NCBI GenBank assembly: GCA_963682175.1
Contig: OY821772.1
Location: forward strand, 43,608,925 to 43,672,924
Direction of reading: 5' to 3'
Source of the DNA: Triglochin maritima
Taxonomy: Eukaryota; Streptophyta; Magnoliopsida; Alismatales; Juncaginaceae
DNA: 64,000 nucleotides
The notes below the pieces were generated by a model that was given only the letters and a program-made list of their open reading frames with translations, did no database searches and was not told the origin of the DNA. Shown one piece after another: positions 4,484 to 48,868 of the stretch; position 1 is the stretch's first letter, and each line of letters opens with the position of its first letter. The translations under genes and the position numbers were made by a program.

Positions 4484-4712
4484 GGCAAAGACAGCTTATT
4501 ATCTTTTTACTTCCAACCCAAATAAGTATGTTTCAAATATTTTCTCCAGTAGATTTGGGAACTACTAAACGTCGCCCCAAAACTACTTAAATCGCCCCTT
4601 GAAATTACCAAATTGCCCTTAACAATATATTTAATACCCATATCGTCCCGTGTCTATAAATAAGACATATGGTCTTGTATATTCATAATTTATCAGTAAA
4701 AACACCACGAAA

Positions 4713-6892
4713 ATGTCTGGCGAGGGTGATACATCGGGTGAGGTAAGCCTGGCGCGGGGCAAATTTTGGGCCGAGCGTCTGCATTAGACGCCTCCCCCAT
4801 GGTGAGGGCGTCTGCGTAGAACGCCCTCCCCATGGCCTAGGCGTCTAACGCAGACGCCTACGCAATGGGAGAGGCGTCTTATGTAGACGTCCTCCCCATG
4901 GGTAAGGCGTCTGTAGTAGACGCCCTTCCCTTCGGTCAGGCGTCCTACGCAGACGCCTTACCGTTGGGGAAGGCGTTTAACACAGACGCCCCATCCATGG
5001 GGCAGGCGTCTAACACAGACGCCTTTTTTTTATTTTGATTTTGTTTTTTTAATTTCGAGTTTATTTTTTAAATTTTTTAATTTCGAATTTATTTTTTTAT
5101 TTTTTTAATTTTGATTTTATTTTTGTAGGTTCCAGATTTCGGTGGTGATGGAGTGGATTACAGTGAGTTATTTCAAACTACACAAATCTTTGCAACAATC
5201 GATGAAGCATGTAAATGGGCCAAACAAGTAGCTATCGGAGCTGGGTTTTTTTTGGTCGTGTCGTCGTACAAAACAAGATCAGATAGTCGGATGGATTGTT
5301 ATTTGAGATGCGACCGGCGAAATCAAATGGAGTCTCGGGATATGGATACTGCACTTCGAAGAAACACCAAAAGAAAGGGTTGCGGTTGCCGTTTCTTAAT
5401 AAAAGTGGTGGAGCGACGGGATCGTGATGGATGGGTTGTGGTTTTTAATAGTGGTCACGGACATCACAACCACAGACTGACAGTTTATCCAGAGGGTCAT
5501 CGTCAAATTAGTGGTCTAAGTTCTGGGGCGAAGAAGATTGTTCGTGATATGACAGAGGCGCAAGCAAAACCACGGAACATCTTGAAGGCAGTAAAAGAAA
5601 AATTCCCGGAGGACAATCCAAATCAAAGGCATATTTATAATTTCAGAGATTACATGAGGAGGACAAAATCTGAAGATCGGAATCCCGTCCAGCAGTTTCT
5701 CTACCAAGCAGTGCAGTGTGAGTACTTACATTGGATTATGGCGGATCCAGAAACTGATGTCGTCACTCACGCTTTTTTGGCACATCCGACGTCAGTCCAG
5801 TTGTTGCGGACATATCCTTTCGTTATCTGCATGGATTCGACTTACAAGACGAACAAGTATAAGATGCCTTTGTTCGAAATGATTGGGGTCACACCAGCAA
5901 ACATGAATTTCCTTATTGGATATGCGATTTTGATGGATGAATCTTACTCCAGTTATTTGTGGGTGATGGAGAAGTTGAGAGATCTGTTATTGGGGACTGT
6001 CAGCCCGACTGCAATAATAACAGACCGGGAGTTAGGCCTTATGCGACCAGTGAGCGAGGTAGTGGTCGATCTTCAGGTAGTGGGAGTAGAGGTCGTGGTC
6101 GTTCTTCCGGTAGTGGAAGCAAAGATCGTGGTCGATCTTCTGGTTCTTCGTCTGTGAGAGGAGGATCAGGTATACCATCCTTATATTTATTATTATTATA
6201 ATTTTGTTATTTATTTCAGTAAATATGTATCTTTTGTTATTATATCTAACTGTATTTTTTTTCATATTGTAGTGACTGGGCGGGCTGACGTAGACGACTT
6301 CCCATATGGAGATAGAATTCCAGGAATCATTATGCCATTCCTACACCAGTGGAATGATGTACGTGCTGATGGAAATTGTGGATTTCGATGTGTCGCCGAT
6401 GTTTTCCACGGTGGTGAAGACAATTGGCAACTCGCCCGTCGTTCGATTTCAAATGAGATAGCTGCGAACCCATCTTTTTATGAGCACGTATACTACGACG
6501 GTGTGGCGCAGGCTCGTCACCGGATTAATTGGGGCGGGGGACCTTGTGGCGAGAATCACTATATGGAGACGTGGACGGACTTGTTTCCCATTGCAAATTT
6601 TTACAAGTGTGCAGTTATGTTCTTCTCTCTCGGAAATGATGGTTCGTTGTACCCATGTCTTACAGTTCTACCTTGGGAGAGTCCGCCTACCGTGACGAGA
6701 CCGTGCAGAGAGTTGATTATTGCTCATTTAGGGAGTTACGCTCATTACATTCGTTTGGAATTGAATGAGGGATTCCCCGTACCTCCTATAGCGACTCTGT
6801 GGTATCAAATACGAGATGAGAGTGTTATTGGATGGGAGCTGGAGTACCAAAATAGGATAGCATATTGGCAACAATTATGTAATATGTTTTGA
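4713..6892 (+). pseudogene. MULE transposase-OTU fusion gene, broken by a 949-bp deletion (A1)
   Basis: Same gene as the intact copy in A2. Exon 1 is 4713-4742 (starts MSGEGDTSGE), exon 2 is 5129-6169, and exon 3 is 6273-6892 (OTU domain with DGNCGFR and SYAHYIRL). Exon 2 is 1,041 nt against 1,990 nt in A2, a difference of 949. The join is at GTGAG/CGAGG: GAG is present once where A2 has it at both edges of the missing segment. The deletion removes the region after the second catalytic Asp, including CxxH, the probable catalytic Glu and the SWIM-like finger. Because 949 is not a multiple of three, the frame shifts: translation reads V-rich nonsense and stops at 6157. The OTU exon itself is open and keeps its Cys and His, but is no longer in frame with the transposase. 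Confidence 0.88.
4774..5037. repeat. 33-bp hairpin array in intron 1 of the A1 transposase gene
   Basis: A GCGTCT core recurs at 4774, 4807, 4840, 4873, 4906, 4939, 4972 and 5005: eight units at exactly 33-bp spacing. Each unit has the form GGCGTCT-N5/6-AGACGCC (a hairpin), followed by a CCCCATGGGG-type spacer that is itself partly palindromic. The array lies just after the first splice donor (4743) and before the acceptor at 5128. Confidence 0.92.
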
Positions 6893-7251
6893 TATGTTTG
6901 TATAATTATGTAATATGTTTTGATATGTTTGTACATTATATAGTGTTGCTTTATTATGTAATATGTTTTGATATGTTTGCTTTATTTGCATTATATATAA
7001 TAGTACGAAAGGTTATCAAACACAAATACAAATAATAAGGGTACAACAGATAAGCAAAACACAAATACAAACAATAAGCGTACGACATGTTAGCAAAAAC
7101 AAACACAAATACAAATAATAAGCGTACAACAGATAAACAAATATAAATGCAAATACTAAGCGTACAACAGATAAGGAAACACAAATACTAAGCGTACAAC
7201 AGATAAACAAATATAAATGCAAATACTAAGAGTACGGTACAACAGATCAAC
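6893..7251. repeat. AT-rich tandem repeats between the convergent A1 genes
   Basis: Repeats of TTATGTAATATGTTTTGATA (6893-6975) are followed by ~40-50-bp units containing AAGCGTACAACAGATAA and CAAATACAAA (7010-7235). They lie between the 3' ends of the two convergent genes. The same arrays, inverted, are at 27730-28064 in A2. Confidence 0.8.
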
Positions 7252-9299
7252 CTACTCATCATCCGAATCATGGTCGGATATGCCTAACTGAGTATGCCAC
7301 GACTGTATGATCTCATCCAAATCTCCGCATGCAGCTCTGGCATCGTCTGGCAGCTCATCCCTCATCTGCAAGATTGGGTCTACAGCCCGTATCATCTTAC
7401 CCATCCACTGCACATAACAATAACATTAGCGTACATTAACAAATTATACGGTACAAATAAATTTAGATAAAATGAAAAAATTACCAGATCGCCACACGTC
7501 CTATCTGGTGGTCGATCTGCTCTCCGGGAGGCACCACGGACGATGATAGGATGTGAGTAACTACCGAACCAATCAAGATAACGTGCATCACACTCGGAGG
7601 GGTCGCGACTACGTCTGAAGTCGCCAAGGAACAATCGGCATGATCTCGGAAATGTCCGCCAAGTCGATTCCGCTGTAGAAGCGGGGAACCTGACGTCGTA
7701 CGTCGCTGCTGTCGCAGACCGCACCGCATGCTCTGGTGTCGGAATGTCAACCGGGATCACCTGAACATATCCTAACTGACGCAAGACCCGATCGGGCATA
7801 TAAGGCTCTATGATATCCCGATAACGAATAAGACCCATCAATAAAGTCCTCGGGACATCCGCTGCTGGGTCAGGACCATAGGGTAACCACTCCACCTAAA
7901 GTTTAACACATTAATAATAATACATCTTAAAATTAAATAAATGGTGTAAAGTTTGATACCTCTGATGCAGTCATCTGATCTAGCCGTGCGCGGATGGAAC
8001 GCAATCGTCCATCGCTCTTGTCCTCGCTCCGGACAGCCCACATACCCGAACGTGGATGACCCTCGTCGATAATCTTCCGCTCACGATGCGGGCGGAATGC
8101 AGGAAAGTACTCGTATATCCACGCCTGCAGCAGCGTAAGACAACCTGCAATCCCAGAACAATCCGCACGGCTAGCTATCCCAAGCTGACGGTACAGGTAT
8201 GCCAACGTCGCTGACCCCCACGAGTACTCACGAACGGTGTCCGGGTCCCTAGCCTCCAGTAGATCGCGTGGTCTGATCCGACAACCACTCTTGTCGACAA
8301 ACAAGACGGCTCCGAGCATCAAGAATAGGTACGCCGTCAACTGTGTATCATCGGCCCGCGGAGGTCGTGCCCGTCTGCATAGGTCCTCAAGGGAGTCGAT
8401 GCTGATACCACCACCACTCCATAAAGCTGTATCTCTCGCGCAAACCATCAGGTGTGACACCAAGCAACTCTGCCACATAACACCTCAGCTCAGACGTCGA
8501 CCCCTGAGCACTAACCAGACGACCATCCACAGGAATGCGCAGGATCTGGAAAACATCGTGAAGCATGATCGTCATCTCTCCGAAAGGCATGTGGAAAGTG
8601 TTGGTGTCAGGCTGCCACCGCTCCACAAACGCAGAAATCAAAGGCATGTCGAGATAAGGGAACATGCTGTACGGTAAGTGCCCCAAATGCGTGGCACTAA
8701 TCTCCTCTCTGATATCAGCACTCAGTGTAGACCGCCAACCCTGTAGTGCTGTACAGGCTCTGTGCCGATTCTGGCACTTCAGAACCTTCCGATCCTCTCC
8801 GTCCCAGATCCGTCTAGCAATGTGACCCCAGAAACTAGGAATGACGCTCCCATCTAAAGGACCACCAGGCGTCATACTGCTCACGATCCAAGAATCGTCC
8901 TGGACCCTCTTCTTCTTCTGAGCGCGGGGATCAACAGTGCACGAGCTCGAATCCCCGGTCGTAAACCTCCCACCCCTACCCTTCCGCACCATCCATCCGG
9001 CAGAAGTAGAAGTACCCGCTCGACCACGTCCTCCGCTATAATCCCCCTGCCTCTCCACCTCCGGCCGCACATCATACGGGCCATCATCGTCGCTCTCGTC
9101 GTCAAAACTATCCACATGCTCATCATCGAAGGAATCATCCTCCTCCTCACGACGACGTAATGCCTCCCTCTCCCTCCTGACCGAAGCAGATATCCCCCGT
9201 CTACGTGGATGACGCGGTGCTGAATCATCCTCTAAAGAACGGAAGGCGTGTAATGGTATCGACTTGCCTCTCCCTCCACTATGACCCGATGACTATTTA

Positions 9300-9530
9300 T
9301 TGAAATTTTAAATACAAATTTGTTAAATTTGTTAAACTAAATTATTATATTTATCAAAATTGTTAAACTAAATCAAAATTTGTTAAACTTAATTATCAAA
9401 ATTGTTAAACTAAATCAAAATTTGTTAAACTAAATTAAAACAATTGTTAAACTAAATCAAAATTTGTTAAAACTAAATATCACAAATGTTAAACTTAATA
9501 AGAATTTGTTAAATTAATTTTTTTGATTTA
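9300..9530. repeat. AT-rich tandem repeat in PMD intron 1 (A1)
   Basis: Many copies of a TTTGTTAAACTAAAT-type word (about 15-30 bp apart). The same repeat is inverted at 25450-25675 in A2. Confidence 0.75.
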
Positions 9531-9587
9531 TCACTATTTATTAAAGTAATTATGATATTTATTAATTAAAAAAACAAAAAAGGAGGA

Positions 9588-9790
9588 GGCGTCTGCGAGA
9601 GACGCCTCCCGCAAGGTGGAGGCGTCTGTCGGAGACGCCTCCTCTTACGGGGAGACGTCTTCGGAAGACGTCTCCCCCATCGGGGAGACGTCTTCCGAAG
9701 ACGTCTCCCGCTACGGGTCGGCATAGGGGGAGCGGCTTCCTCGGACGCCCGCCCCATGCGGGGGGCGTCTCCCTCGGACGCCGACGACTT
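9588..9790. repeat. 33-bp hairpin array in intron 1 of the A1 PMD gene
   Basis: GGCGTCT starts at 9588 and 9621 (33 bp apart). The following units change to GAGACGTCTTCC and AGCGGCTTCC variants. There are fewer units than in the A2 counterpart (25145-25400), so copies have been lost. It is the same class of GGCGTC/GACGCC hairpin as at 4774-5037. Confidence 0.8.
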
Positions 9791-10019
9791 TTTTTTTTAT
9801 TTTAAAAACAAATAAATAACGTAATGTTACCTCATACGGGTACACCGGGGGAACTGCTGGCTGCTTCCCTGGCCTCCGAGACATTCGTAATCTTGTGTAG
9901 TAGGTATAGGAAGAGAAAGTTTTGAAAAAAGAGTGAAATTGTGAGATATATAAGCAAAAATAGGAGGAAGGGCAATTTGGTAATTTCAAGGGACGATGTT
10001 TAGCAGTTCAGGTAGATTT

Positions 10020-16438: not shown

Positions 16439-19400
16439 ATGGATCCTTCTCTACCTGAAACCTCCATTGCTCCTGAAATTGTAGCCGCGCAGGTGTTTTG
16501 TCAACCATGTTCTTTCTGGTTCATTTTAAGGTTCATTATTGGCCTCTAACAATTTTTTTGTGTGGTTTAAGGGAAGCACGTACTACTTCCGCGAAACCAA
16601 GTGCGGTTTCGCGGCCCTTCACAAGCAGTTCGACCGGATGAAGGAGGAGGAGAAAAATGTCTTCCAACGGACGCCTTTCGGTCACTTCCTCAGCTTTCCT
16701 CACGTCACAACTGACAACGAGATACTGGGTTGGTTCGTCGAACACTTCGACGCCAATGAAGTCGGTCTGAGAATAGCCACTGGGGTGGTCCCATTTACGG
16801 TAGAAGACGTCGCCCTTCTACTTGGACTAAGAGTACATGGGCAGAGAGTGGATATGGATGCCATGTACGTAGAGAAACGTGACGGGGTTAACCTCGACAA
16901 CACCCAGCTACTGGGTCATCTTACCGCCACGAGCAAGATGGGCGAGGAGGAGGAGCACGTCCGACTCCTTATTTCTATGATTTTCAATCATTTTTTGTTC
17001 TTCGATGGATCACTGCGAACTAAAGCGTGGTACACGAAACACCTTAAGAACCTCAAGCGCCTCAAGAGATATGCGTGGGCAAATGCGGTTCACACTTTCT
17101 TGGTTGAAGGCCTGGAGGAAGCCCAACGGGAACTCTCGAGGAGGAGATCGTCAGCGAACTTCTCTATGAAGCAGGGCTACGTGTCTGGTTGCGTTGCCGT
17201 ATTACAAGTAAGCATCTTGGTCCGGAATGAGTGTTGTGTCAGTCCGGAGTAGTGTCGGTTTATGTCCGGAATAAGTGTGTTGCCTGTCCGGAATAGTCCT
17301 GTATGTGTCCGGAATGACTGTCTTGCTTGTCCGGAATACGTCTTGTGTCTGTCCGGAATACGTCTTGTGTCTGTCCGGGATAAGTCTTGTGTCTGTCCGG
17401 AATAGTGTTGTCTCTGTCCGGAATAAGTCTTGTGTCTGTCCGGGATAAGTTTTGTGTCTGTCCTCAATAGTGTTGTCTCTGTCCGGAATAAGTGTCTTGA
17501 GGTTGTCCGGAATGAGTGTTGTCTCTGTCCGGAATAAGTGTGTTGTCTGTCCGGAATAAGTGTGTTGCCAGTCCGGAATAGTCCTGTATGTGTCCGGAAT
17601 GAGTGTCTTGTCTGTCCGGAATACGTCTTGTGTCTGTCCGGAATAAGTAATTTGTATGTCCGGAATACGTCTGCGTCTGTCCGGAATAAGAGTTGTGTCT
17701 GTCCGGAATAAGAGTTGTGTCTGTCCGGAATTAGTGTTTGGTCTTTCTGATTAACGTTATGAGACTGTCCTGGGGATGTTATGTTTCTGTTTTTTAACTC
17801 ATTCCTGTTTTCAGGTGTGGCTTTGCGAGAAGTTCAAATTGGGGGATCCCCGGTCAGCATTTCCACGGTTCAAGTGTTGGACCGAAATGTTTAGCAGACG
17901 CCAAATCCTTAGAAAATGGGAAGATCGAGGCATCAACTTGTCCCGGATATACTCGGGCCAATTTGAGTTGAAGGGCACCCCAAAACTCAGTGCACGGGAG
18001 CATTCACTGTTGTCAGAGGATCAATTTCCTCCTGCAGCAGCAACTCCCGCAGCGAAGGAAACACCTTCAACTCCTGCAGAAGCAACGGTCGCCTCGAAGG
18101 AAACACCTTCAACATCCACTCTACCAAGGATACAACTCAGTGAATGCAGCATTCCATGTGACCCACTGCTACAAGAGTTGGAACTTAGTGAGGTGAAGAC
18201 GAAATGGCTGCGAGCCGAAGCAGCACTTAGGGAGGCGACCGTTAAAATTAACAACCTGGAGGAAGAACTCCGGATCTCTCAAGAAGAGTGTCGTGAGCTG
18301 AGAGTCCGTGGGGAGGAGGAAGAGAGGGAAAAGAGGGAGGAGGAAGAGAGAAATAAGAGGGAGGCGGAGGAGAGGGAAGAGAGGGAGGAGGAAGAGAGAA
18401 ATAAGAGGGAGGCGGAGGAGAGGGAAGAGAGGGAGGAGGAAGAGAGAAATAAGAGGGAGGCGGAGGAGAGGGAAAAGAGGGAGGAGGAAGAGAGAAGTAA
18501 GAGGGAGGCGGAGGAGAGGGAGAAGAGAGAGGAGGAAGAGAGGGAGAAGAGAGAGGAGGAAGAAAGGAAGAAGAGGAACGAGGAAGAGAGGGAGAAGAGG
18601 GAGGAAGAGAAGAAGAAGAGGGAGGAGAATGAGAGGAATAAGAGGGAGGAGGATGAGAAGAAGAAGAGGGAGGAGGATGAGAAGCATAAGAGGGAGGAGG
18701 AAGAGAGGAAGAGGAGGGAGGAGGAAGAGAAGGGAGGAGGAGGATGAGAAGAAGAGGAGGGAGGAGGATGAGAGGAATAAGAGGGAGGAGGAAGAGAGGA
18801 GGAAGAGGAAGGAGGAAGAGAGAAAAAAGAGGAGGGAGGAGGAGGATGAGAGGAATAAGAGGGAGGAGGAAGAGAGGAAGACGAGGAAGGAGGAAGAGAG
18901 AAAAAAGCGGAGGGAGGAAGAAAGGAAGAAGAGGGAGGAGGAAGACAGGAAGAAGAGGAAGGAGGAAGAGGGAGAGAAGAGGACGGAGGAAGAGAGAAAA
19001 ATCGGAGGGAGGAAGAGGGAAAGAAGAGGAAGGAGGAAGAAAGGAAGGAGGAAGTTATGAGGAGACAGGAGGAAAGAAAGAGGAAGGCTGGGGTTGCGCT
19101 TCCGCTTTTGCACCCTCAAAAAATGCGGACCATTAAACCACGCTTGCGCACAGAACACATAGACGAAGCGCAAAGCAAATCTGGCCAAGATGAGGCACAG
19201 AAGATTGCCGCAGAAAAACAAGAAGAAATAAAGGAGGCCGAAGAAGCCACCACAAAAACAAAAGGGCCCGAAGAAGCCAGTGAAGAAACAGCGAAAGATG
19301 AACTGGCCGCCCATGTTTCGTCCACGAGGCCAGATGTGGATGAGACCGCCTTAAGAACGCTGACCAATGATGAGGTACATCGTTTATTGAATGCAACGGC

Positions 19401-20067
19401 TCCCGAGCGAGAAGCAAAAGATATTATCTGGAGGGGGGTTCTCAGCATTATCAGCAGGGGTGATCTCAAGGAAATAATTTCGCGAGGCACAGAAATCACC
19501 AACGAAACTCTTGACGGCCTAATTGAGGTACTCGTCAGAAGAGGAGGGCAAAAAAAGGTGGTCTGCTTATCAACCTTCGAATCGGAAATGATTGTGGAGG
19601 GACAGGGAGAAGATATAAAGAAAGATTATTTACTCCCAAAAATTGAAGGACTTAATGTGGAGGAAGTCGTCATCGCACAGCCATGCTGTTTGTCCGGCCA
19701 CTGGACTCTGTTCGTTGCCCACGGACCTCGATCAGAGTTCATTCAGTACAACAGCATCTCCCGCACGCTTAAAAGAGGTGAAAATCCTAACCGTTTAGTC
19801 GGAACTCATGAATGCACCACGTCTAAGATAGCGGGATTCTGGCGAGGGTTTTTGGCGGTCGAATGGCCACTGAGAGTTGACAGGAAGGGTAGCCAACGAC
19901 AGCTAGCGGGGAGTAACGACTGCGGGCCATACGTTTTGTACTGGATCAAGCGTTTGATGGAGAATGCTGATCCGACTCAGCCGAAGCAGAGCAAGGTTCT
20001 TCACCGTTTTAGAGGCGATTTGGCCAATTTCTTACTCGAAGACTCTGGGATGTGCGATCAACAATAA
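16439..20067 (+). CDS. Ulp1/C48 cysteine-protease-like gene of MULE B, with long E/K/R repeat
   Basis: Exon 1 is 16439-16492 (starts MDPSLPETSIAPEIVAAQ), exon 2 is 16572-17207 and exon 3 is 17815-20067. All junctions are GT-AG and in phase 0. Exon 2 resembles the N-terminal DUF1985-like region of plant transposon-borne Ulp1 proteins (NEVGLRIATGVVPFTVEDVA). Exon 3 has a coiled-coil of EEEERNKRE-type repeats (~18300-19060), then the protease domain. His is in SGHWTLFV and Cys in NDCGPYVLYW. The residue 17 after His, normally Asp in SENP/Ulp1, is Asn (QYNSI). Two opposite frame changes lie inside the repeat (around 18735 and 19010), so as written the frame is not continuous. They may be real lesions or sequence errors in low-complexity DNA. 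The expected role is SUMO/ubiquitin-like deconjugation; activity is uncertain. Ulp1-like genes in plant MULEs are a known phenomenon (Kaonashi-type elements). Confidence 0.7.
17208..17735. repeat. TCCGGA array, intron 2 of the Ulp1-like gene
   Basis: About two dozen copies of a ~20-24-bp unit of the form GTCCGGAATAAGTGTTGTGTCT fill most of this intron (17208-17814). The palindromic core TCCGGA is nearly invariant, whereas the flanks vary. Confidence 0.93.
18300..19060. repeat. Purine-rich coding repeat (GAGGAGGAAGAGAGG)n
   Basis: Almost pure G/A on the plus strand. One frame encodes E/K/R coiled-coil sequence, the next frame encodes R/G-rich sequence, and the complement is S/L-rich. Higher-order units (for example GAGGGAAGAGAGGGAGGAGG) recur. 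Only the E-rich frame is contiguous with the flanking exon sequence. Confidence 0.9.
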
Positions 20068-20214
20068 ACGACTCTGGATGTTTTAATTTTTTTTACAAAG
20101 TTATACATGTATACATATTAAAATTACATAGACTATTTGAATGATTTATCAATACAATGACATTTGGTGTTGGGTTAAATTATCAATACAAGGACATGTA
20201 TAAATTATCAATAC

Positions 20215-20700
20215 TCTTAAACCGGACAACAAATACACCTATTCCGGACAGCAAATACACTAATTCCGGACAACAAATACACTTATTCCGGACAGCAAAT
20301 ACACTTATTCCGGAAAAACTTAATGTTCCGTTTCTGGACAAAATTTATTCTTAAACCGGACAACAAATACACTTACTCCGAACAACAAATACACTTATTC
20401 CGGACAGCAAATACACTTATTCCGAACAACAAATACACATATTCCGGACAACAAATACACATATTCCGGACAGCAAATACACTTATTCCGGACAACAAAT
20501 ACACTTATTCCGGACAGCAAATACACTTATTCCGGACAAACTTTTTGTTCCGTTTCGGGACACACTTTATTCTTAAACCGGACAACAAATACACTTATTC
20601 CGGACAACAAATACACTTATTCTGGACAGCAAATACACTTATTCCGGACAAACTTTTTGTTCCGTTTCGGGACACACTTTATTCTTATTCCGTTTCGGAA
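20215..20700. repeat. CCGGACA array between the B genes
   Basis: A ~22-bp unit of the form CCGGACAACAAATACACTTATT is repeated about 18 times in two blocks. The blocks are separated by variants containing TTTTTGTTCCGTTTCGGGAC. It starts ~150 bp after the Ulp1-like stop and runs into the end of the transposase frame. Confidence 0.93.
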
Positions 20701-22766
20701 CTCATCCTTGATGTCGCAGTACATCATCTTCCCAATTTCTAACTGCACCTTCTTGAAGACACCCACCGTATACAACTCGCTCAATTGCCTCTCGAATGGA
20801 TATTTCGAAATCAATTGCGGAGTCTTATGCTGACAATCGAAATCAGACTGAGCTTCCTTCTCATACTTGTGGCGTAGTGCGAGTTCGTATTGTTGAACGA
20901 ACTGCTTAAGTGTCGTCCTTGATGTGAGGTACTTATCGAAGAAGGCGTTCATACCCTCACTTCTCTGGGTTGATGCCATTCCGGCGGAAAAACAATCCCG
21001 CGAAAATGCAGGTACCCAGTGCTCTCGAATTGCATAAATGGATCGGAGCCAATTATTGTCGTGCAACTCGAAATCATCTAGAAATCCCTGCCAATTCCGC
21101 TCGAATTCTGCCGGAGTCTTGGAATCGAATACACAGTTGTTGAGGTCAAACAACGTATGCTCCCGGTACTTCTTGGGCAGCTTCACAGGGGCCTTATTCA
21201 TTATGTGCCATATACAAAATCTGTGCCGCGCTTCAGGGAACACAGTCCTCACATCCGAAGCTATGGCGCCACATTGGTCTGTTATGATCGCCGGGGGGCT
21301 TGTATCTGCACACAACGCGATCAAGATAAAAACATATGTTAATCCGGACAGAAATAACGTAAACCGGACAGACGTCAAGGGTAAACCGGACGAGCAAAAG
21401 ACGTAAACCGGACAGACATAAGGGATAAACCGGACGAGCAAAAGACGTAAACCGGACAGGCGTCAAGGGTAAACCAGACAGACGTAAGGGATAAACCGGA
21501 CGCGCAAAAAACGTAAACCGGACAGACGTAAGGGATAAACCGGACGAGCAAAATACGTAAACCGGACAGACGTAAGGGATAAAACGGACGAGCAAAAGAC
21601 GTAAACCGGACAGACGTAAGGGATAAACAGGACGAGCAAAAGACGTAAACAGGACAGACGTAAGGGATAAACTGGACGAGCAAAATACGTAAACCGGACA
21701 GACGTAAAGGAGTAACCGGACGAGCAAAAGACGTAAAACGGACAGACGTAAGGGAGTAACCGGACAGGCACACAACGTAAAATGGACAAAGCCGGACAAA
21801 ATAAAACACGTACCGTTCATGCACGTCAACCATGTTTGGAACAACCAAATGTAATTTTGTGTCGTCTCGGAAGAGAGGAGTGCGCAACCGAGTAGGACGG
21901 ACTGGTAGTGGTGATTTACCCCCACAAATGGGGCAAAAGGCATGTCATACTTGTTTGTTATGTATGTTGTGTCGAAACATATTGCATCTCCAAAGTAAGA
22001 GTAAGCAGCTCGAGAACGACTGTCGGCCCAGAACACATTTCGTAGTCTGCCTTCGTCGTCCATATCCATTACGTAAAAGAAGCGGGAATCATTCTTCTGC
22101 ATCCTGATGAAATAATCTTGGATAGCTTGCGCATCTCCTGGTCCCATTTTGAGGTTTCTAACCTCGTTCACAACATTCCTGCGAAACATAATTTTTATGA
22201 CAAAGCTAAATGCGTAACTTCAACCAGGTTAAGTGGAGAATAAATAACCTTAGGTCCTGCTCGTTGAAAGACAATTTATCGTGACCTCCAGCTTCGACCA
22301 CAAAAGATTGCATGGTCTTGGCGGCAGATATACCGGCAGCATCATTGCACGAAATGCGTGCTCTGGCGGACTCCGGGACGGATCGTTTTTGTCGGAGGAA
22401 GCGCATCTGGTCTTCCGACAGCATGGCGTGATTATGTTCGAGATCTACGTAGTTAATTACGTAGCCTCTGGATGGATTACCGGAGATCCTAATCCGCGCA
22501 GTGCATTCGACCCTACCGGATAACCTATGTTTCGGTCTACCTTCACCTTGGTTTCCGGGAGCATTACCTTCCTTTGAGCAAGTAAGAGTGGCCCATATTA
22601 CAACACCATGACCGTAATGAGATTGCCTTATCTTCACACCAAAACCACAGGAATCGGCGTATGAAACGTAAAATGCTTTGGCTTCTTCGAAGGAAGGAAA
22701 ATTCATCATCACTTGAGGGACGTTGGAGGCATGAGCCGGCTGTGAGGACACATTTACGAGTGCCAT
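20617..22766 (-). CDS. FAR1-type MULE transposase of element B, C-terminally truncated
   Basis: Exon 1 is 22766-22249, exon 2 is 22178-21814 and exon 3 is 21305-20617. Phases agree at both junctions, giving about 523 residues. Exon 1 has a FAR1 DNA-binding domain (FPSFEEAKAFYVSYADSCGF; C/H pattern ending LEHNHAM). Exons 2 and 3 have the MULE transposase core: ICFDTTYITNKYDMPFAPF (first Asp), PPAIITDQCGA (second Asp), CIWHIMNK, and TQRSEGMNAFFDKYL (probable catalytic Glu). The start was chosen at MALVNVSS because the relic C gene begins MEVINVSS at the same place. The conserved sequence stops near KMMYCDIKD, and the tail encodes repeat sequence. No SWIM zinc finger follows, so the protein is shorter than the usual 650-850 residues. 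A further exon may have been lost where the repeat array now lies. Confidence 0.78.
21340..21810. repeat. CCGGACA array, intron 2 of the B transposase gene
   Basis: A ~43-bp unit with two CCGGAC cores ~21-22 bp apart (AAACCGGACAGACGTAAGGG then ATAAACCGGACGAGCAAAAG) is repeated about ten times. It occupies almost all of the 21306-21813 intron. Confidence 0.93.
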
Positions 22767-22969
22767 TACAGTACAACAAAAATGGAGGAAGGAGAGAAGA
22801 AGGAATGGTTCGTAGGATCGGAATAACCTAGACACTCATATTTGTATCTCCGTGACGCGCCAAACAATAAGAAAGAAGACGGAGGACGTGCTGATTTGAA
22901 AAGCATTAAATGCGATGGTGGACGCATCGGGAAAATAAAACAACAGCAACAAAAAATCAGGAGTAAGTA

Positions 22970-23105
22970 GTTCGTCTGTCCGGAATAAGTGTTCCGTCTG
23001 TCCGGAATAAGTATTCCAACTGTCCGGAATAAATAGTAACTGTGTCCGGAATAAGTTACGTGCTTGTCCAGAAACTAAAGAAAATGAATGATGTGTGTGT
23101 CCGGA
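22970..23105. repeat. TCCGGA array upstream of the B transposase
   Basis: Six TCCGGAATAAGT-type units in 22976-23060, plus TGTCCGG at 23097, lie between the transposase start and the right end of the element. This is the presumptive promoter region. Confidence 0.88.
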
Positions 23106-24878: not shown

Positions 24879-25033
24879 TAATTATTCTGAACTGCTAAAC
24901 ATCGCCCCAAAATTACTTAAATCGCCCCTTGAAATTACCAAATTGCCCTTCCTCCTATTTTTGCTTATATATCTCACAATTTCACTCTTTTTTCAAAACT
25001 TTCTCTTCCTATACCTACTACACAAGATTACGA

Positions 25034-27729
25034 ATGTCTCGGAGGCCAGGGAAGCAGCCAGCAGTTCCCCCGGTGTACCCGTATGAGGTAACATTACGTT
25101 ATTTATTTGTTTTAAAAAAAAAAAAAAAAAAAAAAAAAGTCGTCGGCGTCCGAGGGAGACGCCCCCCGCATGGGGCGGGCGTCCGAGGAAGCCGCTCCCC
25201 CTATGGGGGGAGCGGCTTCCGAGGACGCCCGACCCATGCGGGGGGCGTTTCCCTCGGACGCCGACCCGAAGCGGGAGACGTCTGCGGAAGACGTCTCCCC
25301 GATGGGGGAGACGTCTTCCGCAGACGTCTCCCCGTAGGAGGAGGCGTCTCCGACAGACGCCTCCACCTTGCGGGAGGCGTCTCTCGCAGACGCCTCCGCC
25401 TTTTTTGTTTTTTTAATTAATAAATATCATAATTACTTTAATAAATAGTGATAAATCAAAAAAATTAATTTAACAAATTCTTTTTAAGTTTAACATTTGT
25501 GATATTTAGTTTTAACAAATTTTGATTTAGTTTATATATTGTTTTAATTTAGTTTAACAAATTTTGATTTAGTTTAACAATTTTGATAATTAAGTTTAAC
25601 AAATTTTGATTTAGTTTAACAATTTTGATAAATATGATAATTTAGTTTAACAAATTTAACAAATTTGTATTTAAAATTTCAATAAATAGTCATCGGGTCA
25701 CAGTGGAGGGAGAGGCAAGTCGATACCATTACACGCCTTCCGTTCTTTAGAGGATGATTCAGCACCGCGTCATCCACGTAGACGGGGGATATCTGCTTCG
25801 GTCAGGAGGGAGAGGGAGGCATTACGTCGTCGTGAGGAGGAGGATGATTCCTTCGATGATGAGCATGTAGATAGTTTCGACGACGAGAGCGACGATGATG
25901 GCCCGTATGATGTGCGGCCGGAGGTGGAGAGGCAGGGGGATTATAGCGGAGGACGTGGTCGAGCGGGTACTTCTACTTCCGCCGGATGGATGGTGCGGAA
26001 GGGTAGGGGTGGGAGGTTTACGGCCGGGGATTCGAGCTCGTGCACTGTTGATCCCCGCGCTCAGAAGAAGAAGAGGGTCCAGGACGATTCTTGGATCGTG
26101 AGCAGTATGACGCCTGGTGGTCCTTTAGATGGGAGCGTCATTCCTAGTTTCTGGGGTCACATTGCTAGACGGATCTGGGACGGAGAGGATCGGAAGGTTC
26201 TGAAGTGCCAGAATCGGCACAGAGCCTGTACAGCACTACAGGGTTGGCGGTCTACACTGAGTGCTGATATCAGAGAGGAGATTAGTGCCACGCATTTGGG
26301 GCACTTACCGTACAGCATGTTCCCTTATCTCGACATGCCTTTGATTTCGGCGTTTGTGGAGCGGTGGCAGCCTGACACCAACACTTTCCACATGCCTTTC
26401 GGAGAGATGACGATCATGCTTCACGATGTTTTCCAGATCCTGCGACTTCCTGTGGATGGTCGTCTGGTTAGTGCTCAGGGGTCGACGTCTGAGCTGAGGT
26501 GTTATGTGGCAGAGTTGCTTGGTGTCACACCTGATGGTCTGGCGAGAGATACAGCTTTATGGAGTGGTGGTGGTGTCGGCATCGACTCCCTTGAGGACCT
26601 ATGCAGACGGGCACGACCTCCGCGGGCCGATGATACACAGTTGACGGCGTACCTATTCTTGATGCTCGGAGCCGTCTTGTTTGTCGACAAGAGTGGTTGT
26701 CGGATCAGACCACGCGATCTACTGGAGGCTAGGGACCCGGAGACCGTTCGTGAGTACTCGTGGGGGTCAGCGACGTTGGCATACCTGTACCGGCAGCTTG
26801 GGATAGCTAGCCGTGCGGATTGTTCTGGGATTGCAGGTTGTCTTACGCTGCTGCAGGCGTGGATATACGAGTACTTTCCTGCATTCCGCCCGCATCGTGA
26901 GCGGAAGATTATCGACGAGGGTCATCCACGTTCGGGTATGTGGGTTGTCCGGAGCGAGGACAAGAGCGATGGACGATTGCGTTCCATCCGCGCACGGCTA
27001 GATCATATGACTGCATCAGAGGTATCAAACTTTACACCATTTATTTAATTTTAAGATGTATTATTATTAATGTGTTAAACTTTAGGTGGAGTGGTTACCC
27101 TATGGTCCTGACCCAGCAGCGGATGTCCCGAGGACTTTATTGATGGGTCTTATTCGTTATCGGGATATCATAGAGCCTTATATGCCCGATCGGGTCTTGC
27201 GTCAGTTAGGATATGTTCAGGTGATCCCGGTTGACATCCCGACACCAGAGCATGCGGTGCGGTCTGCGACAGCAGCGACGTACGACGTCAGGTTCCCCGC
27301 TTCTACAGCGGAATCGACTTGGCGGACATTTCCGAGATCATGCCGATTGTTCCTTGGCGACTTCAGACGTAGTCGCGACCCCTCCGAGTGTGATGCACGT
27401 TATCTTGATTGGTTCGGTACTTACTCACATCCTATCATCGTCCGTGGTGCCTCCCGGAGAGCAGATCGACCACCAGATAGGACGTGTGGCGATCTGGTAA
27501 TTTTTTCATTTTATCTAAATTTATTTGTACCGTATAATTTGTTAATGTACGCTAATGTTAATGTTATGTGCAGTGGATGGGTAAGATGATACGGGCTGTA
27601 GACCCAATCTTGCAGATGAGGGATGAGCTGCCAGACGATGCCAGAGCTGCATGCGGAGATGTGGATCAGATCATACAGTCATGGCATACTCAGTTAGGCA
27701 TCTCCGACCATGATTCGGATGATGAGTAG
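25034..27729 (+). CDS. Plant-mobile-domain (PMD) protein carried by MULE A2
   Basis: Exons are 25034-25087, 25690-27021, 27086-27496 and 27574-27729. They give 18, 444, 137 and 52 codons (650 residues), all phase 0. The N-terminus is basic and acidic (RRRGISAS, EEEDDSFDDEHVDSFDDESD). The middle carries the PMD (aminotransferase-like) fold seen in MAIN/MAIL1-type proteins: LGHLPYSMFPYLDMPLISAF, VERWQPDTNTFHMPFGEMTI, then FQILRLPVDGRLVS. The C-terminus is acidic (ISDHDSDDE). Host PMD proteins act in the nucleus in silencing and genome stability. The function of the element-borne version is unknown; a role in counter-silencing or DNA binding is only a suggestion. The gene converges on the transposase gene, and intron 1 holds the 33-bp hairpin array. 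PMD genes inside transposons are known in plants. Confidence 0.87.
25145..25400. repeat. 33-bp hairpin array in intron 1 of the A2 PMD gene
   Basis: Cores start at about 25145, 25178, 25211, 25244, 25277, 25310, 25343 and 25376: eight units at 33-bp spacing. Sequence drifts from GGCGTCC to AGCGGCTTCC, GAGACGTCTTCC and back to GGCGTCT, yet the period is constant. Each unit is a GC-rich hairpin. The array follows the first splice donor and an A24-type run. Confidence 0.92.
25450..25675. repeat. AT-rich TTTGATTTAGTTTAACAAA repeats in PMD intron 1
   Basis: Short AT-rich words repeated up to the acceptor at 25689. Counterpart of 9300-9530. Confidence 0.75.
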
Positions 27730-28064
27730 GCTTAGTATTTGTGTTTGTTTATCTGTTGTACGCTTAGTATTTGTGTTTGCTTATCTGTGGTACGCTTAGT
27801 ATTTGCATTTATATTTGTTTATCTGTTGTACGCTTATTATTTATTATTTGTGTTTGTGTTTGCGAACATGTCGTACGCTTATTGTTTGTATTTGTGTTTT
27901 GCTTATCTGTTGTACCCTTATTATTTGTATTTGTGTTTGATAACCTTTCGTACTATTATATATAATGCAAATAAAGCAAACATATCAAAAACATATTACA
28001 TAATAAAGCAACACTATATAATGTACAAACATATCAAAACATATTACATAATTATACAAACATA
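27730..28064. repeat. AT-rich tandem repeats between the convergent A2 genes
   Basis: Units with GTTTATCTGTTGTACGCTTA and TTTGTATTTGTG (27735-27960), then CATATCAAAACATATTACAT repeats (27978-28080), fill the space between the two stop codons. The last repeat encroaches on the transposase 3' end. Confidence 0.85.
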
Positions 28065-31000
28065 TCAAAACATATTACATAATTGTTGCCAATATGCTAT
28101 CCTATGTTGGTACTCCAGCTCCCATCCAATAACACTCTCATCTCGTATTTGATACCACAGAGTCGCTATAGGAGGTACGGGGAATCCCTCATTCAATTCC
28201 AAACGAATGTAATGAGCGTAACTCCCTAAATGAGCAATAATCAACTCTCTGCACGGTCTCGTCACGGTAGGCGGACTCTCCCAAGGTAGAACTGTAAGAC
28301 ATGGGTACAACGAACCATCATTTCCGAGAGAGAAGAACATAACTGCACACTTGTAAAAATTTGCAATGGGAAACAAGTCCGTCCACGTCTCCATATAGTG
28401 ATTCTCGCCACAAGGTCCCCCGCCCCAATTAATCCGGTGACGAGCCTCCGCCACACCGTCGTAGTATACGTGCTCATAAAAAGATGGGTTCGCAGCTATC
28501 TCATTTGAAATCGAACGACGGGCGAGTTGCCAATTGTCTTCACCACCGTGGAAAACATCGGCGACACATCGAAATCCACAGTTTCCATCAGCACGTACAT
28601 CATTCCACTGGTGTAGGAATGGCATAATGATTCCTGGAATTCTATCTCCATATGGGAAGTCGTCTACGTCAGCCCGCCCAGTCACTACAATATGAACAAA
28701 AAATACAGTTACATATAATAACAAAAGATACATATTTACTGAAATAAATAACAAAATAATAATAATAATAAATGTAAGGATGGTATACCTGATCCTCCTC
28801 TCACTGACGAAGAACCAGAAGATCGACCACGACCTTTGCTTCCACTACCGGAAGAACGACCACGACCTCTACTCCCACTACCTGAAGATCGACCACTACC
28901 TCGCTCTGCATACTCAAACGCACTAGGGTCCCGTCGTGTCGACTTTCCCCTTGGTCGACCTCGTAGCTTTGTTTTTACTGCAGGCTCTTTCAAATTCGAA
29001 TGTTCGGGGTGTAGCTGCTCGAATAAAACCCGAGAGGCAGATCGAATTACGGTAGGGTCACTTCCTGCAATCTCATCAACCAGACTGCGAAAATGTTCGG
29101 CGTCTTGAGCTGCCTGAGACACAAACTCTGCGTTCCCGGCTCCTTCCCCAATGACAAGTGTCCTCCAGAACGAATGAATCTGCTCTAAGTAAATTCCGTT
29201 TTCTGATTCAAGACATCCACGGATGGTACATGCGCAAGGTATCCCATGAGAAGTCAGAAAAGCGCACTCGCAACGATATTCAACTTCATCATCTAACTGT
29301 TGCATTCTCTTCACCTCCTGACTCAGCAACTGCAAACAGTGATGCGAAACTCTACCATTTATGTGACGATATAGAGAATGTCCGAAATTAGTCAAATTTC
29401 GCCGTCTCGAGTCTTCAAGAAAGTTTCGAATATTCGTCAGCTGCATTTCAGTAGCCGCGTTGACGCGCTCGAAAAGAGTGTCCAGAGCTGCAGTCGATGT
29501 AGAAATCCACTCTTTTAGAGCCGAATGAGCACTTTCGACCCTACAATTCGTGGTGTTCCCAAAATGAAGGACTTTGTTCGTCCAATTCAGCACAAACTTT
29601 TCTTTATGCACTAACCACGTGGTGTCCAGATACTCCGTGATAGCCGGCCACGATCTATACAAATCTTTCAGAGCATACACAGCTCTATCATACTCGGCTT
29701 CTGAAGTAGAAAGCATGATCTTCCTCCATCTTCCACGCCTCAAAGTCTCTGCCATCTCCTTATTCTTGCCGAATACGTGGTACGCGTAATTCAATACGTC
29801 TTTGTTGATGTGCCATGTGCAGAGTAAATGAGCAGAGTCTGGAAAAACCTCTCTCACTGGTCGCATAAGGCCTAACTCCCGGTCTGTTATTATTGCAGTC
29901 GGGCTGACAGTCCCCAATAACAGATCTCTCAACTTCTCCATCACCCACAAATAACTGGAGTAAGATTCATCCATCAAAATCGCATATCCAATAAGGAAAT
30001 TCATGTTTGCTGGTGTGACCCCAATCATTTCGAACAAAGGCATCTTATACTTGTTCGTCTTGTAAGTCGAATCCATGCAGATAACGAAAGGATATGTCCG
30101 CAACAACTGGACTGACGTCGGATGTGCCAAAAAAGCGTGAGTGACGACATCAGTTTCTGGATCCGCCATAATCCAATGTAAGTACTCACACTGCACTGCT
30201 TGGTAGAGAAACTGCTGGACGGGATTCCGATCTTCAGATTTTGTCCTCCTCATGTAATCTCTGAAATTATAAATATGCCTTTGATTTGGATTGTCCTCCG
30301 GGAATTTTTCTTTTACTGCCTTCAAGATGTTCCGTGGTTTTGCTTGCGCCTCTGTCATATCACGAACAATCTTCTTCGCCCCAGAACTTAGACCACTAAT
30401 TTGACGATGACCCTCTGGATAAACTGCCAGTCTGTGGTTGTGATGTCCGTGAGCACTATTAAAAACCAAAACCCATCCATCACGATCTCGTCGCTCCACC
30501 ACTTTTATTAAGAAACGGCAACCGCAACCCTTTCTTTTGGTGTTTCTTCGAAGTGCAGTATCCATATCCCGAGACTCCATTTGATTTCGCCGGTCGCATC
30601 TCAAATAACAATCCATCCGACTATCTGATCTTGTTTTGTACGACGACACGACCAAAAAAAACCCAGCTCCGATAGCTACTTGTTTGGCCCATTTACATGC
30701 TTCATCGATTGTTGCAAAGATTTGTGTAGTTTGAAATAACTCACTGTAATCCACTCCATCACCACCGAAATCTGGAACCTACAAAAATAAAATCAAAATT
30801 AAAAAAAATTAAAAAATAAATTAGAAATTAAAAAATTTCAAAAATAATGTCGAAAATAAAAAAACAAAATCAAAATCAAAAAAAAAAAAAAATAGGCGTC
30901 TGTGTTACGCGCCTGCCCCATGGATGGGGCGTCTGTGTTAAACGCCTTCCCCAACGGTAAGGCGTCTGCGTAGGACGCCTGACCGAAGGGAAGGGCGTCT

Positions 31001-31205
31001 ACTACAGACGCCTTACCCATGGGGAGGACGTCTACATAAGACGCCTATCCCATGGGGGAGGCGTCTGCGTTAGACGCCTAGTCCATGGGGAGGGCGTCCT
31101 ACGCAGACGCCCTCACCATGGGGGAGGCGTCTAATGCAGACGCTCGGCCCAAAATTTGCCCCGCGCCAGGCTTACCTCACCCGATGCATCACCCTCGTTA
31201 GACAT
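28065..31205 (-). CDS. MULE transposase fused to an OTU cysteine-protease domain (A2, intact)
   Basis: Exons are 31205-31176, 30778-28789 and 28684-28065, with phases consistent, giving 879 residues. Residues ~20-130 form a FAR1/WRKY-GCM1-like zinc domain (CYLRCDR, GCGCRFLIK, GHHNHRL). The MULE core follows: D246 (CMDSTYKTNKYKMPLF), D309 (AIITDRELGL), CTWHINK ~330, and a probable catalytic Glu ~425 (RVESAHSALKEW). Next are a SWIM-like finger (CECAFLTSHGIPCAC, last ligand Cys), an AT-hook-like KLRGRPRGKS (~615) and an RG/SG-rich linker. The final ~205 residues are an OTU domain: ADGNCGFR (Asp and Cys of the active site) and SYAHYIRL (probable His). OTU enzymes cleave ubiquitin chains; cleavage here is inferred. 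It could instead mature the fusion or stabilise the transposase. The linker-OTU junction is an intron (28685-28788) whose removal keeps one reading frame. A1 is the deletion derivative. Confidence 0.9.
30895..31160. repeat. 33-bp hairpin array in intron 1 of the A2 transposase gene
   Basis: GGCGTCT starts at 30928, 30961 and 30994 and continues at the same period to about 31160. It is the same array as 4774-5037, inverted. It lies between exon 1 (10 codons) and exon 2. Confidence 0.92.
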
Positions 31206-31369
31206 TTTCGTGGTGTTTTTACTGATAAATTATGAATATACAAGACCATATGCCTTATTTATAGACACGGGACGATATGGGTATTAAATATATTGTTAAG
31301 GGCAATTTGGTAATTTCAAGGGGCGATTTAAGTAGTTTTGGGGCGACGTTTAGTAGTTCCCTAATTATT

Positions 31370-32565: not shown

Positions 32566-34271
32566 TCCAGAATTAGTTATGGGTCTGTCCGGAATACGTT
32601 GTGTGTCTGTCGGAATTAAGTTTTCAAGAGTAGTTTTTCTTTGAATACACACAATTAAACCGGACAGACACACGACTTAATCCGGATAGACACACGACTT
32701 ATTCCGGACAGACACACAACTTATTCTGGACACACAACTCCACAACTTAATTTGGACATACACACAACTTAATCTGGACATACACACAACTTAAACATGA
32801 CATACACCCAACATATTTCGGAGATACCACAACGTATTCTGGACAGACTCACAACTTAGTCCGGACATACCCACCACTTAATCCGAACAAACGCACAACT
32901 TAATCCGAACAAGCACATAAACTTGATCTGGACATAATCACAACGTATTTTGGACATACACACACCTTAATTTGGACAGCTACACCCCTTAAACTGGACA
33001 GACCCACACCTCAAACTGAACAGGGCCGAAAGTATATACGTATCGTTCATGCATGACAACCACGTTTGGAACAACCAAATGTAATTTTCAGTGGTCTCAA
33101 AAGACAGCAAAGCACACCCGAGAAAAACTGACTCGAAATGGTGATTAACTCCTACAAATTGGGCAAAGGGTATGTCGTAGTTGTTGGTAATGTAGGTTGT
33201 ATCGAAACATATTGCGTCTCCGAAGTATGAATAGGCAACTCTAGAACGACAGTCAACCCAGAACACGTATTGTAGTCTTACTTCGTCATCTATATCCATT
33301 ACATAGAAAAACATGGAATCAATCTTCTGCATCCTAATGAAATAGTTCTGAAGAGCTTGTGTATCGCCAGGTCTCATCTTCAAATTTCTGACTTCGTTTA
33401 CAACGTTCATGCACACAAGAATGTTTAAGACCATGCAAAATGTTTTACTTCAATTATGTCAGGCAGAAATAACACACATCTTAGGTCTCTTTTGTTGAAA
33501 GTCAATTTGTCATGACCTCCGACCTCGACCACAAAAGATTGCATAGTCTTAGCAGCCAATATCCCAACGATATACGTGCTCTGACGACATCAGGGACGGA
33601 TTGTTTTTGTCTGAGAAAATGCATTCAATCCTCCTCAAGCATGGCGTGGTTATGTTTAATATCAACATAGCTAATGTGGTACCCCATTGCTGGGTTTCCA
33701 GAGACCTTGATCCGAGCAGTGCACCAGACCCTACTGGATAACCTATGCTTTAGTTTCCCTTGTCCTTGGTTTGCTGGAGTCTGTCCCTCCTTGGAGCAAG
33801 TCAGTGTGGCCCGTATAACAACATCACGATCGTAATGAGATTGCATTATCTTAACACCAAAACCACAGGAATCGACATATGCTACGTAAAATGTTTTGGC
33901 GTCTTCGAAAGAATGAAAAAAAAATGCTCTTTCGAAACGTTTGAGGGTTGCTCCACTGATGAAGACACATTAATGACTTCCATTGGAGTACAAAGAGGAT
34001 GAGAGGAAAACCAAGAGAATGAAGAAATAAGATAATGCGCCAAAAGGGAGACGAAATGAAGAAGAAACTTCATCTGTTGTGTAGAAGCGCCAAAATGAGA
34101 GATGGACTAATTTGAGACGCATTTAATGTGATTTGAGACGCATTGGGAAAAAACAAAAGAAAACATGGGGGAAGAAAAATGTCGATTTCTTTTGTGTTGT
34201 TGACATGGACTGTACCAACTCAGCAGCATCCTCAAGGGACGTCCTAAACAACGGTCATTAATCATTTTCCC
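32566..34271 (-). mobile_element. Relic of a family-B MULE (right part)
   Basis: Degenerate TCCGGA/CCGGACA-type repeats (32575-33010) are followed by a decayed FAR1-type transposase on the minus strand. Next comes a terminal region whose outer end, reverse-complemented, starts GGGAAAATGATTAATGACCG, comparable with GGGAAATGTTTGTTGAACGC of element B. A left end and an Ulp1-like gene were not found, so the element is truncated. Confidence 0.75.
33030..33983 (-). pseudogene. Decayed FAR1-type transposase (B relic)
   Basis: The frame begins MEVINVSS at 33983, matching MALVNVSS of the B gene, but frameshifts interrupt it within ~30 codons. Further pieces are readable at 33846-33625 (FAR1 domain: ATLTCSKEGQTPANQGQGKL, DIKHNHAMLEED) and 33434-33045 (VVNEVRNLKMRPGDTQAL, ICFDTTYITNNYDIPFAQF). 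The third exon was not found. The exon order and intron position match the B gene. Confidence 0.8.
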
Positions 34272-47800: not shown

Positions 47801-48868
47801 TCGTGTCTGGTACGCAGAACTTAGTTTCTCTCTCATTAATTATGGATTTATTAAAAGCTCTGCTGATGCATCCATGTTTACAAAACATAGTCATAACACT
47901 ACTATCATTGTACTTATCTATGTTGATGACATTATCGTAACTGGAAATAATAATCACCAAATAGCATTAGTTAAGAATATCTGAAATCAAAGTTTGACAT
48001 AAAAGACCTAGGATACTTAAAATACTTCTTAGGAATAGAAATTGCATACTCCAAGAAAGGGTTATTTCTCTCCCAACGAAAATACACCCTAGACCTACTT
48101 AAAGAAACCGGAAAAATAGGATCAAAACCCTCAACTACTCCTATAGAAATCAACAAAAAACTAGGACCGACAGATGAAACCCCTCTTTCTAATATTGGAC
48201 AATTTCAGAGATTAGTATGGAAACTTATTTATCTTACTATTACCCGACGAGACATTACATATGTTGTCAGTTTAATAAGTCAATTCATGCATGCTCCTCA
48301 CATACACCACTTATATTTGGTAAAAAGAATCCTATGTTATCTTAAAGGGAGACCCAGACAAGGACTCTGGATGAAACCTAACAACTCTAACTCGATAATT
48401 GGATATTCTGATGTAGACTGGGCTGGAAGTCATGATCGAAGATCAACCTCTGGGTTCTGCACATTCGTGGGAGGCAACTTGGTAACTTAACGAAGCAAAA
48501 AGCAAAATGTTGTCGCTAGATCTAGTGCAGAAGCAGAATACCGTGGAATTGAATCAACTACCAGCGAACTAATTTGGTTAAGTCAACTACTTAAAGATAT
48601 GAAGATCACAACTCAGAACCCCATGAAGATGTTTTGTGATAATAATGCAGCACGACACATCTCCATTAACCCAGTCTTCCATGAAAGGACTAAACACATT
48701 GAAGTCGATTGTCACTTTATTCTTGAAAAGATACAGTCAAAGCAAATAGAGGTCCCCTACATTCCAAGCAAAGATCAGCTGGCTGATATCTTCACCAAAG
48801 CTCTAGATCGCAAGACCTTCTCCAACATACTTCTCAAGTTAGGATCTATCAACCCTTTCCAGACCTAA
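44884..48868 (+). pseudogene. Decayed copia gag-pol
   Basis: Pieces in order: gag (44884-45372, LNETNYLSWSRAVTLSL), whose frame ends early and continues out of phase at 45400-45591; protease (WIIDTGATDHMTGD, ~45760); integrase zinc region and first Asp (HSDIWGP, ~46310); integrase remainder with the second Asp and Glu (RSDNDSEY, GISERKNRH); reverse transcriptase (MDVKNAFLQGNL, YVDDIIVTG); RNase H (GYSDVDWAGS, SSAEAEYR). Breaks are: stops and frame changes at ~45370 and ~45591, a 10-A run at 46409-46418 with a frame change, a frame change at ~47984, and a TAA at 48488-48490. No CCHC zinc knuckle was seen between gag and protease. Confidence 0.93.

Follow-up and report, generated by a model that had tools for sequence, protein, structure and literature searches.

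Genes for a PMD are tabulated in several groups of plant Mutator-like elements (MULEs), often in antisense orientation, and in the same table the VANDAL group is entered with "PMD and/or DUF in half the members" (PMC6446971). A passage of PMC8616336 describes the PMD as a domain of unknown function, although transposons of Arabidopsis are silenced by two PMD proteins. That transposable elements use captured PMDs against silencing is already in print as speculation (passage in PMC5418596). KIU/Ulp1-carrying MULEs (Hoen 2006; van Leeuwen 2007) are cited in parts of PMC2836005 and PMC13317346. The proteins VANC21 and VANC6 target short motifs in noncoding tandem repeats that differ by family (sections of PMC5735166 and PMC10398659). 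Here we describe a 64,000-nt stretch of Triglochin maritima DNA (assembly GCA_963682175.1, contig OY821772.1, positions 43,608,925-43,672,924 of the forward strand; hereafter the window, whose first letter is position 1 of all coordinates given), in which a complete MULE of 6475 bp lies at 24887-31361. This element encodes a transposase with a C-terminal OTU-like tail and, on the opposite strand, a PMD protein. The family is of a known kind; the element is intact and very young, and its tail is unusual. What is most useful here is a lead from structure, based on a predicted fold, that links the PMD to the VANC-type fold.

A Mutator DDE transposase, terminal inverted repeats (TIRs) and an 8-bp target-site duplication (TSD) together identify the element as a MULE, a class in which TSDs range from 8 to 11 bp. 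The initial annotation of this DNA had described an apparently intact MULE, with an OTU domain fused to its transposase and with a PMD gene, bounded by a perfect 8-bp duplication and TIRs of about 65 bp, with frames of 879 and 650 codons in consistent splice phases. Its structure is indeed intact (Table 1): the TIR arms measure 62 nt each with 95% complementarity, and both the minus-strand transposase-OTU gene (three exons, 879 residues) and the plus-strand PMD gene (four exons, 650 residues) have GT-AG introns and are in phase. TSDs were surveyed in 42 elements, comprising 40 fetched genome copies and the two copies of the window; they could be read in 38, of which 36 show a perfect 8-bp match, and two copies (L026 and L048) have flanks that fail to match as a TSD. 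Two extra matching bases beyond the 8 had suggested a 10-bp reading, which is ruled out because the second window copy (4557-10011) has its own TSD, GTAGATTT, and by the 36 perfect 8-bp TSDs; extension to 9 bp occurs only at chance level (5/36 and 6/36). The TSDs are 93% A+T, compared to 67% in the left flanks, with A or T at positions 1, 2 and 7 in 36/36 and at position 8 in 35/36.

Table 1. Features of the element at 24887-31361 and of two further MULEs in the window
Feature	Position	Strand	Basis or remark
TSD, left (TAATTATT)	24879..24886	none	8-bp length in 36/38 determinable elements
TIR, PMD side	24887..24950 (matched arm 24889-24950)	+	inverted-repeat pair, 62 nt, 95%
PMD exon 1	25034..25087	+	spliced frame; exon 1/2 junction spanned by no alignment among 120 relatives
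33-bp GC-rich tandem array, PMD intron 1, core GGCGTC-N7-GACGCC	25140..25402	none	proposed binding sites, putative function
PMD exon 2	25690..27021	+	spliced frame, Pfam
PMD exon 3	27086..27496	+	exon 2/3 junction spanned gap-free by 87 alignments from 120 proteins
PMD exon 4 and stop	27574..27729	+	spliced frame; exon 3/4 junction spanned by 6 alignments
Transposase exon 3: C-terminal OTU-like domain (C709, H831)	28065..28684	-	spliced frame, motifs, relatives
Transposase exon 2: MULE DDE transposase (D246, D309, E425) and SWIM-like CxC motif near residue 513	28789..30778	-	spliced frame, Pfam
33-bp GC-rich tandem array, transposase intron 1, same GGCGTC-N7-GACGCC core	30894..31150	none	putative function
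Transposase exon 1	31176..31205	-	spliced frame; 1 spanning alignment from 98 proteins
TIR, transposase side	31298..31361 (matched arm 31298-31359)	-	inverted-repeat pair, 62 nt, 95%
TSD, right (TAATTATT)	31362..31369	none	8-bp length in 36/38 determinable elements
Second copy of the element, own TSD GTAGATTT	4557..10011	-	949-bp transposase deletion and 1-bp PMD frameshift
Different MULE	16539-23060		PMD open reading frame E 2.2e-9; Ulp1/C48-like open reading frame E 9e-4 (slightly below the cut-off of Pfam); FAR1 and MULE transposase

A search of 1.063 Gb in 167 contigs with the PMD-side 201 bp as query returned 1319 first-look candidates, of which 40 were scored; the copy number is a minimum, and the sample favours the youngest copies whose PMD-side end is intact. 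All 40 scored matches to this end are 100% identical and all were fetched, one of them (L037) matching the window element at every one of its 6475 bases. A frame was counted as intact if it had no frameshift, no internal stop and fewer than 60 missing bases. Counting copies with both genes, a check proposed in the initial annotation, gave 18/40 in which both frames are intact with all five GT-AG introns; a further copy (L035) has both frames open and a changed donor in transposase intron 1, and the rest retain the PMD frame alone (6/40), the transposase-OTU frame alone (5/40) or neither (10/40). The second window copy retains GT-AG at all five introns, as do the 18 two-frame copies; its 949-bp deletion spans transposase residue 319 to about 635 and, together with the 1-bp frameshift in its PMD gene, makes it non-autonomous. 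The family is young and recently mobile, with many near-identical copies, and we regard the structural part of our account as near certain.

The PMD domain occupies residues 232-572 of its protein (Pfam PF10536, E = 2e-61, 208.6 bits against a gathering cut-off of 34.9). The exon junctions were checked against BLAST alignments with 120 relatives, a junction being counted as spanned where the alignment was gap-free with at least 6 of 16 residues identical (Table 1). MAIN-LIKE names among the database matches stem from automatic annotation and do not settle orthology. The predicted fold of a PMD homologue matches a chain of VANC21, an element-encoded anti-silencing protein, that was crystallised with its target DNA; this match points to direct DNA-binding anti-silencing; other structural-alignment rows for the PMD model, mostly of C-terminal helices (484-537), were set aside. 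Sequence comparisons gave no link between PMD and VANC21, a second PMD-like open reading frame was likewise without a VANC21 match, and DUF1985 and DUF287 were absent from the Pfam listing (E up to 10) for PMD exons 2 and 3 and for P0003. The PMD may have a VANC-type DNA-binding fold, a structural lead for which candidate targets lie in the same element, and the match provides a concrete, testable hypothesis for this domain, namely sequence-specific DNA binding. Alternatively, this could be an ordinary active plant MULE whose PMD mimics or blocks host proteins of the MAIN/MAIL1 type by dominant interference, with no binding to element DNA. MAIN and MAIL1 are PMD silencing factors (passage in PMC8616336), and a MULE-captured PMD has previously been proposed as an anti-silencing tool (passage in PMC5418596); nevertheless, the protein matched by fold is encoded by an element, counteracts silencing and was crystallised together with the DNA that it targets, and we consider interference of this kind unlikely.

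The candidate targets are the tandem arrays of the two first introns, whose 33-bp units carry the half-sites GGCGTC and GACGCC, usually in inverted pairs with 7-base spacing. Across the window we counted 22 instances of GRCGYC-N6-8-GRCGYC (10 per copy and 2 elsewhere) versus 0-1 in each of 20 shuffles. GACGCC alone falls within the arrays in 21 of its 23 occurrences in the element; the remaining 33 in the window are divided among the arrays of the second copy (19), the rest of that copy (1) and positions outside (13). With approximate bounds for the second MULE and a related piece, tandem arrays make up 24.8% of the MULE stretches as opposed to 1.1% of the remaining window. The right array is 66-75 bp longer, or about two units, in 9/33 placed copies. 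The different MULE at 16539-23060 repeats this array design with another core, CCGGACA, in units of about 22 bp: arrays lie in its PMD intron, between its genes, in a transposase intron and upstream of its transposase, and these four noncoding arrays hold 48 of its 49 CCGGACA motifs, with 8 more elsewhere in the window.

The position of the arrays in the first element, 258-513 bp and 216-467 bp from its ends and within both first introns, would also suit a PMD that assists transposition, as a mudrB-like accessory protein or a cofactor of the transposase, the arrays being subterminal transposase-binding or promoter elements. We judge this quite unlikely, given that the second PMD-MULE has its shared core also in an array between the genes and in a transposase intron, although the ends of that MULE were not found.

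Purifying selection on the array core at first looked strong (5/156 versus 54/364 variable), but misaligned units can produce such a contrast. In an alignment-safe version of the test, flanking sequence allowed placement of the left array in 12/41 copies and of the right array in 33/41, 11 of them of equal length, yielding 13 left and 12 right sequences with the reference. Restricted to equal-length ungapped arrays, variability was 1/162 in the core versus 10/358 (p = 0.19), and under a union definition 3/168 versus 8/352 (p = 1). Core conservation was not demonstrable in these alignment-safe data, as one might see if the arrays were neutral hairpin-prone minisatellites and the PMD had been retained without a silencing-related function. 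A break mapping to positions 311-321 of the element, within the left array, in 7/40 copies fits the same idea, which we nonetheless hold to be very unlikely: replacement changes in the PMD are depleted, and separate arrays within each element carry one common core. The left array holds a near-perfect hairpin at 25142-25265 (60-nt arms, 93%), and the internal deletions of these seven copies start, as BLAST breaks, within it, which suggests breakage or abortive gap repair induced by the hairpin.

Comparison of the two window copies shows 11 synonymous and 10 replacement differences in the PMD gene (dN/dS 0.28, p = 0.004); the PMD domain by itself gives 0.38 (p = 0.15, not significant) and the transposase-OTU gene gives no sign of constraint (0.84, p = 0.73). 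Among 24 near-full copies plus the reference, with p values uncorrected, variants present in at least two sequences have a pN/pS of 0.35 in PMD (p = 0.039) and 0.39 in transposase-OTU (p = 0.048), whereas singletons (0.86 and 0.71, respectively) are indistinguishable from neutral. Such a contrast would be expected under selection on the source copies and drift of the inserted ones. By these ratios the PMD shows some constraint; changes in the OTU region are too few for a selection test of its own.

The 879-residue protein consists of a DDE transposase (Pfam PF10551, E = 4.6e-24; PF00872, E = 7.6e-7), a Gly/Ser/Arg-rich linker and the C-terminal OTU-like domain. D246, D309 and E425, which we take to be the catalytic DDE residues, are all kept in 24/24 near-full copies. 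The tail displays the motif Asp-Gly-Asn-Cys709 (DGNC) and His831; the corresponding catalytic Cys and His columns are invariant in 21 aligned rows, and C709 is kept in 23/24 and H831 in 24/24 near-full copies. A Pfam search with the tail gave no OTU family match, profile comparisons gave weak matches to otubain C65 (E = 0.31) and to OTUD5 in PDB (E = 0.074), and in the structure model the predicted local distance difference test score is below 50 beyond residue 135, too poor for placing the catalytic His. The DGNC and His motifs and the weak fold matches support an OTU-like domain; no Ulp1 (C48) domain was detected by Pfam in either element protein (E up to 0.1). Each transposase junction is crossed gap-free by one BLAST alignment among 98 relatives, and the transposase/OTU exon junction falls within the variable linker. 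The tail is C-terminal in 51/75 transposase relatives, Puccinia proteins included, and is therefore an ancient component of this lineage of transposases rather than something captured recently from a host; a single polypeptide for transposase and tail is usual in the family. The initial annotation had stressed two host-like domains; to read them as a striking capture is not supported, given these relatives and the presence of PMD genes in several plant MULE groups (table in PMC6446971). A distant relative lends transcript support, as an open reading frame in a EukProt TRINITY transcript (P0188, 30% identity) joins transposase and OTU-like tail. Two MULE-type proteins of the rust fungus Puccinia striiformis (P0215 and P0217) have the same C-terminal tail, which raises old common ancestry or plant-fungus horizontal transfer.

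Taken together, these data can be accommodated in a model of a young, apparently autonomous MULE. Its DDE transposase would excise and insert the element, and the OTU-like tail would deubiquitinate locally, in the transposase complex or in chromatin at the element ends. The PMD protein would counteract silencing in the manner of VANC proteins, through sequence-specific DNA binding: it would recognise the paired GGCGTC/GACGCC half-sites in the 33-bp arrays of the two first introns and keep the element's own copies clear of silencing marks. As a whole, we give this model almost an even chance. The initial idea that the element may counter two host defences stands in part: counter-silencing is plausible, whereas interference with ubiquitin-dependent turnover is less likely than a local action of the transposase-fused protease on the transposition complex or on chromatin close by. 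A wider proposal, which we put forward tentatively and with rather more doubt than belief, is that the PMD is a domain of VANC type that binds specific DNA sequences, widely used by plant MULEs as an anti-silencing factor on their own tandem arrays, and here paired with a transposase-borne deubiquitinase; MAIN and MAIL1 would share its fold, and transposon anti-silencing and host silencing modules would be two faces of one domain.

Elsewhere in the window, three of the 8 outlying CCGGACA motifs lie in a related 22-bp array at 32.6-33.0 kb, and the piece at 32640-33919 is related to the MULE at 16539-23060, its stretch 33038-33919 being 77% identical to the transposase region 21808-22701. Retrotransposon pol open reading frames (Pfam RVT_2, gag_pre-integrs and Pol_BBD), presumably of Copia type, lie at 45638-47984, and 49293-51338 and 54246-56314 are direct repeats of about 2 kb with 93% identity. 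A tRNA scan found none, and scans of viral contigs with transposase and PMD revealed no relatives. A linkage of PMD and OTU-transposase in quinoa (P0121, transposase-OTU, and P0058, PMD; each on a contig 1,881,557 long) is weak because many PMD matches lie on other quinoa scaffolds, and was not used as evidence; the species overlap between the PMD and transposase match lists, judged by eye, is also weak.

The element resembles groups 42 and 45-50 of Dupeyron et al. 2019 in its MULE transposase, PMD gene and TIRs (present in most groups), and groups 42 and 47-50 in the antisense PMD gene; it differs in its 8-bp TSD, compared to 9 or 9-10 bp wherever that table indicates a length, and in its OTU-like tail, "OTU" having 0 occurrences in PMC6446971. 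With the KIU/Ulp1 MULEs, as cited in parts of the two papers above, it has in common a ubiquitin-like-protease domain, here OTU-like rather than Ulp1 and fused to the transposase itself. Ginger1 transposases also have a C-terminal OTU or Ulp1 protease, but their transposase is of the Gypsy-integrase type and the Ginger1 passages of PMC2836005 list animals and leave PMD unmentioned. The tail makes this transposase a natural example of one that may bring a deubiquitinase of its own. In the PMD-C MULE fusions of grasses and Amborella (passage in PMC5418596) the MULE-borne PMD forms one protein with the transposase; the present element has a separate PMD gene, and it is the OTU-like domain that is joined to the transposase. 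VANDAL21 of Arabidopsis, like this element, combines a transposase with a second protein of matching fold (here predicted) and an element-specific short core within noncoding tandem repeats. Young, multi-copy and intact, with arrays that stand out as candidate targets, the element is well suited to tests of PMD function, and is set apart from VANDAL21/VANC21 by clear TIRs, an OTU tail, a different core and a second protein that is a PMD by sequence rather than DUF1985/DUF287.
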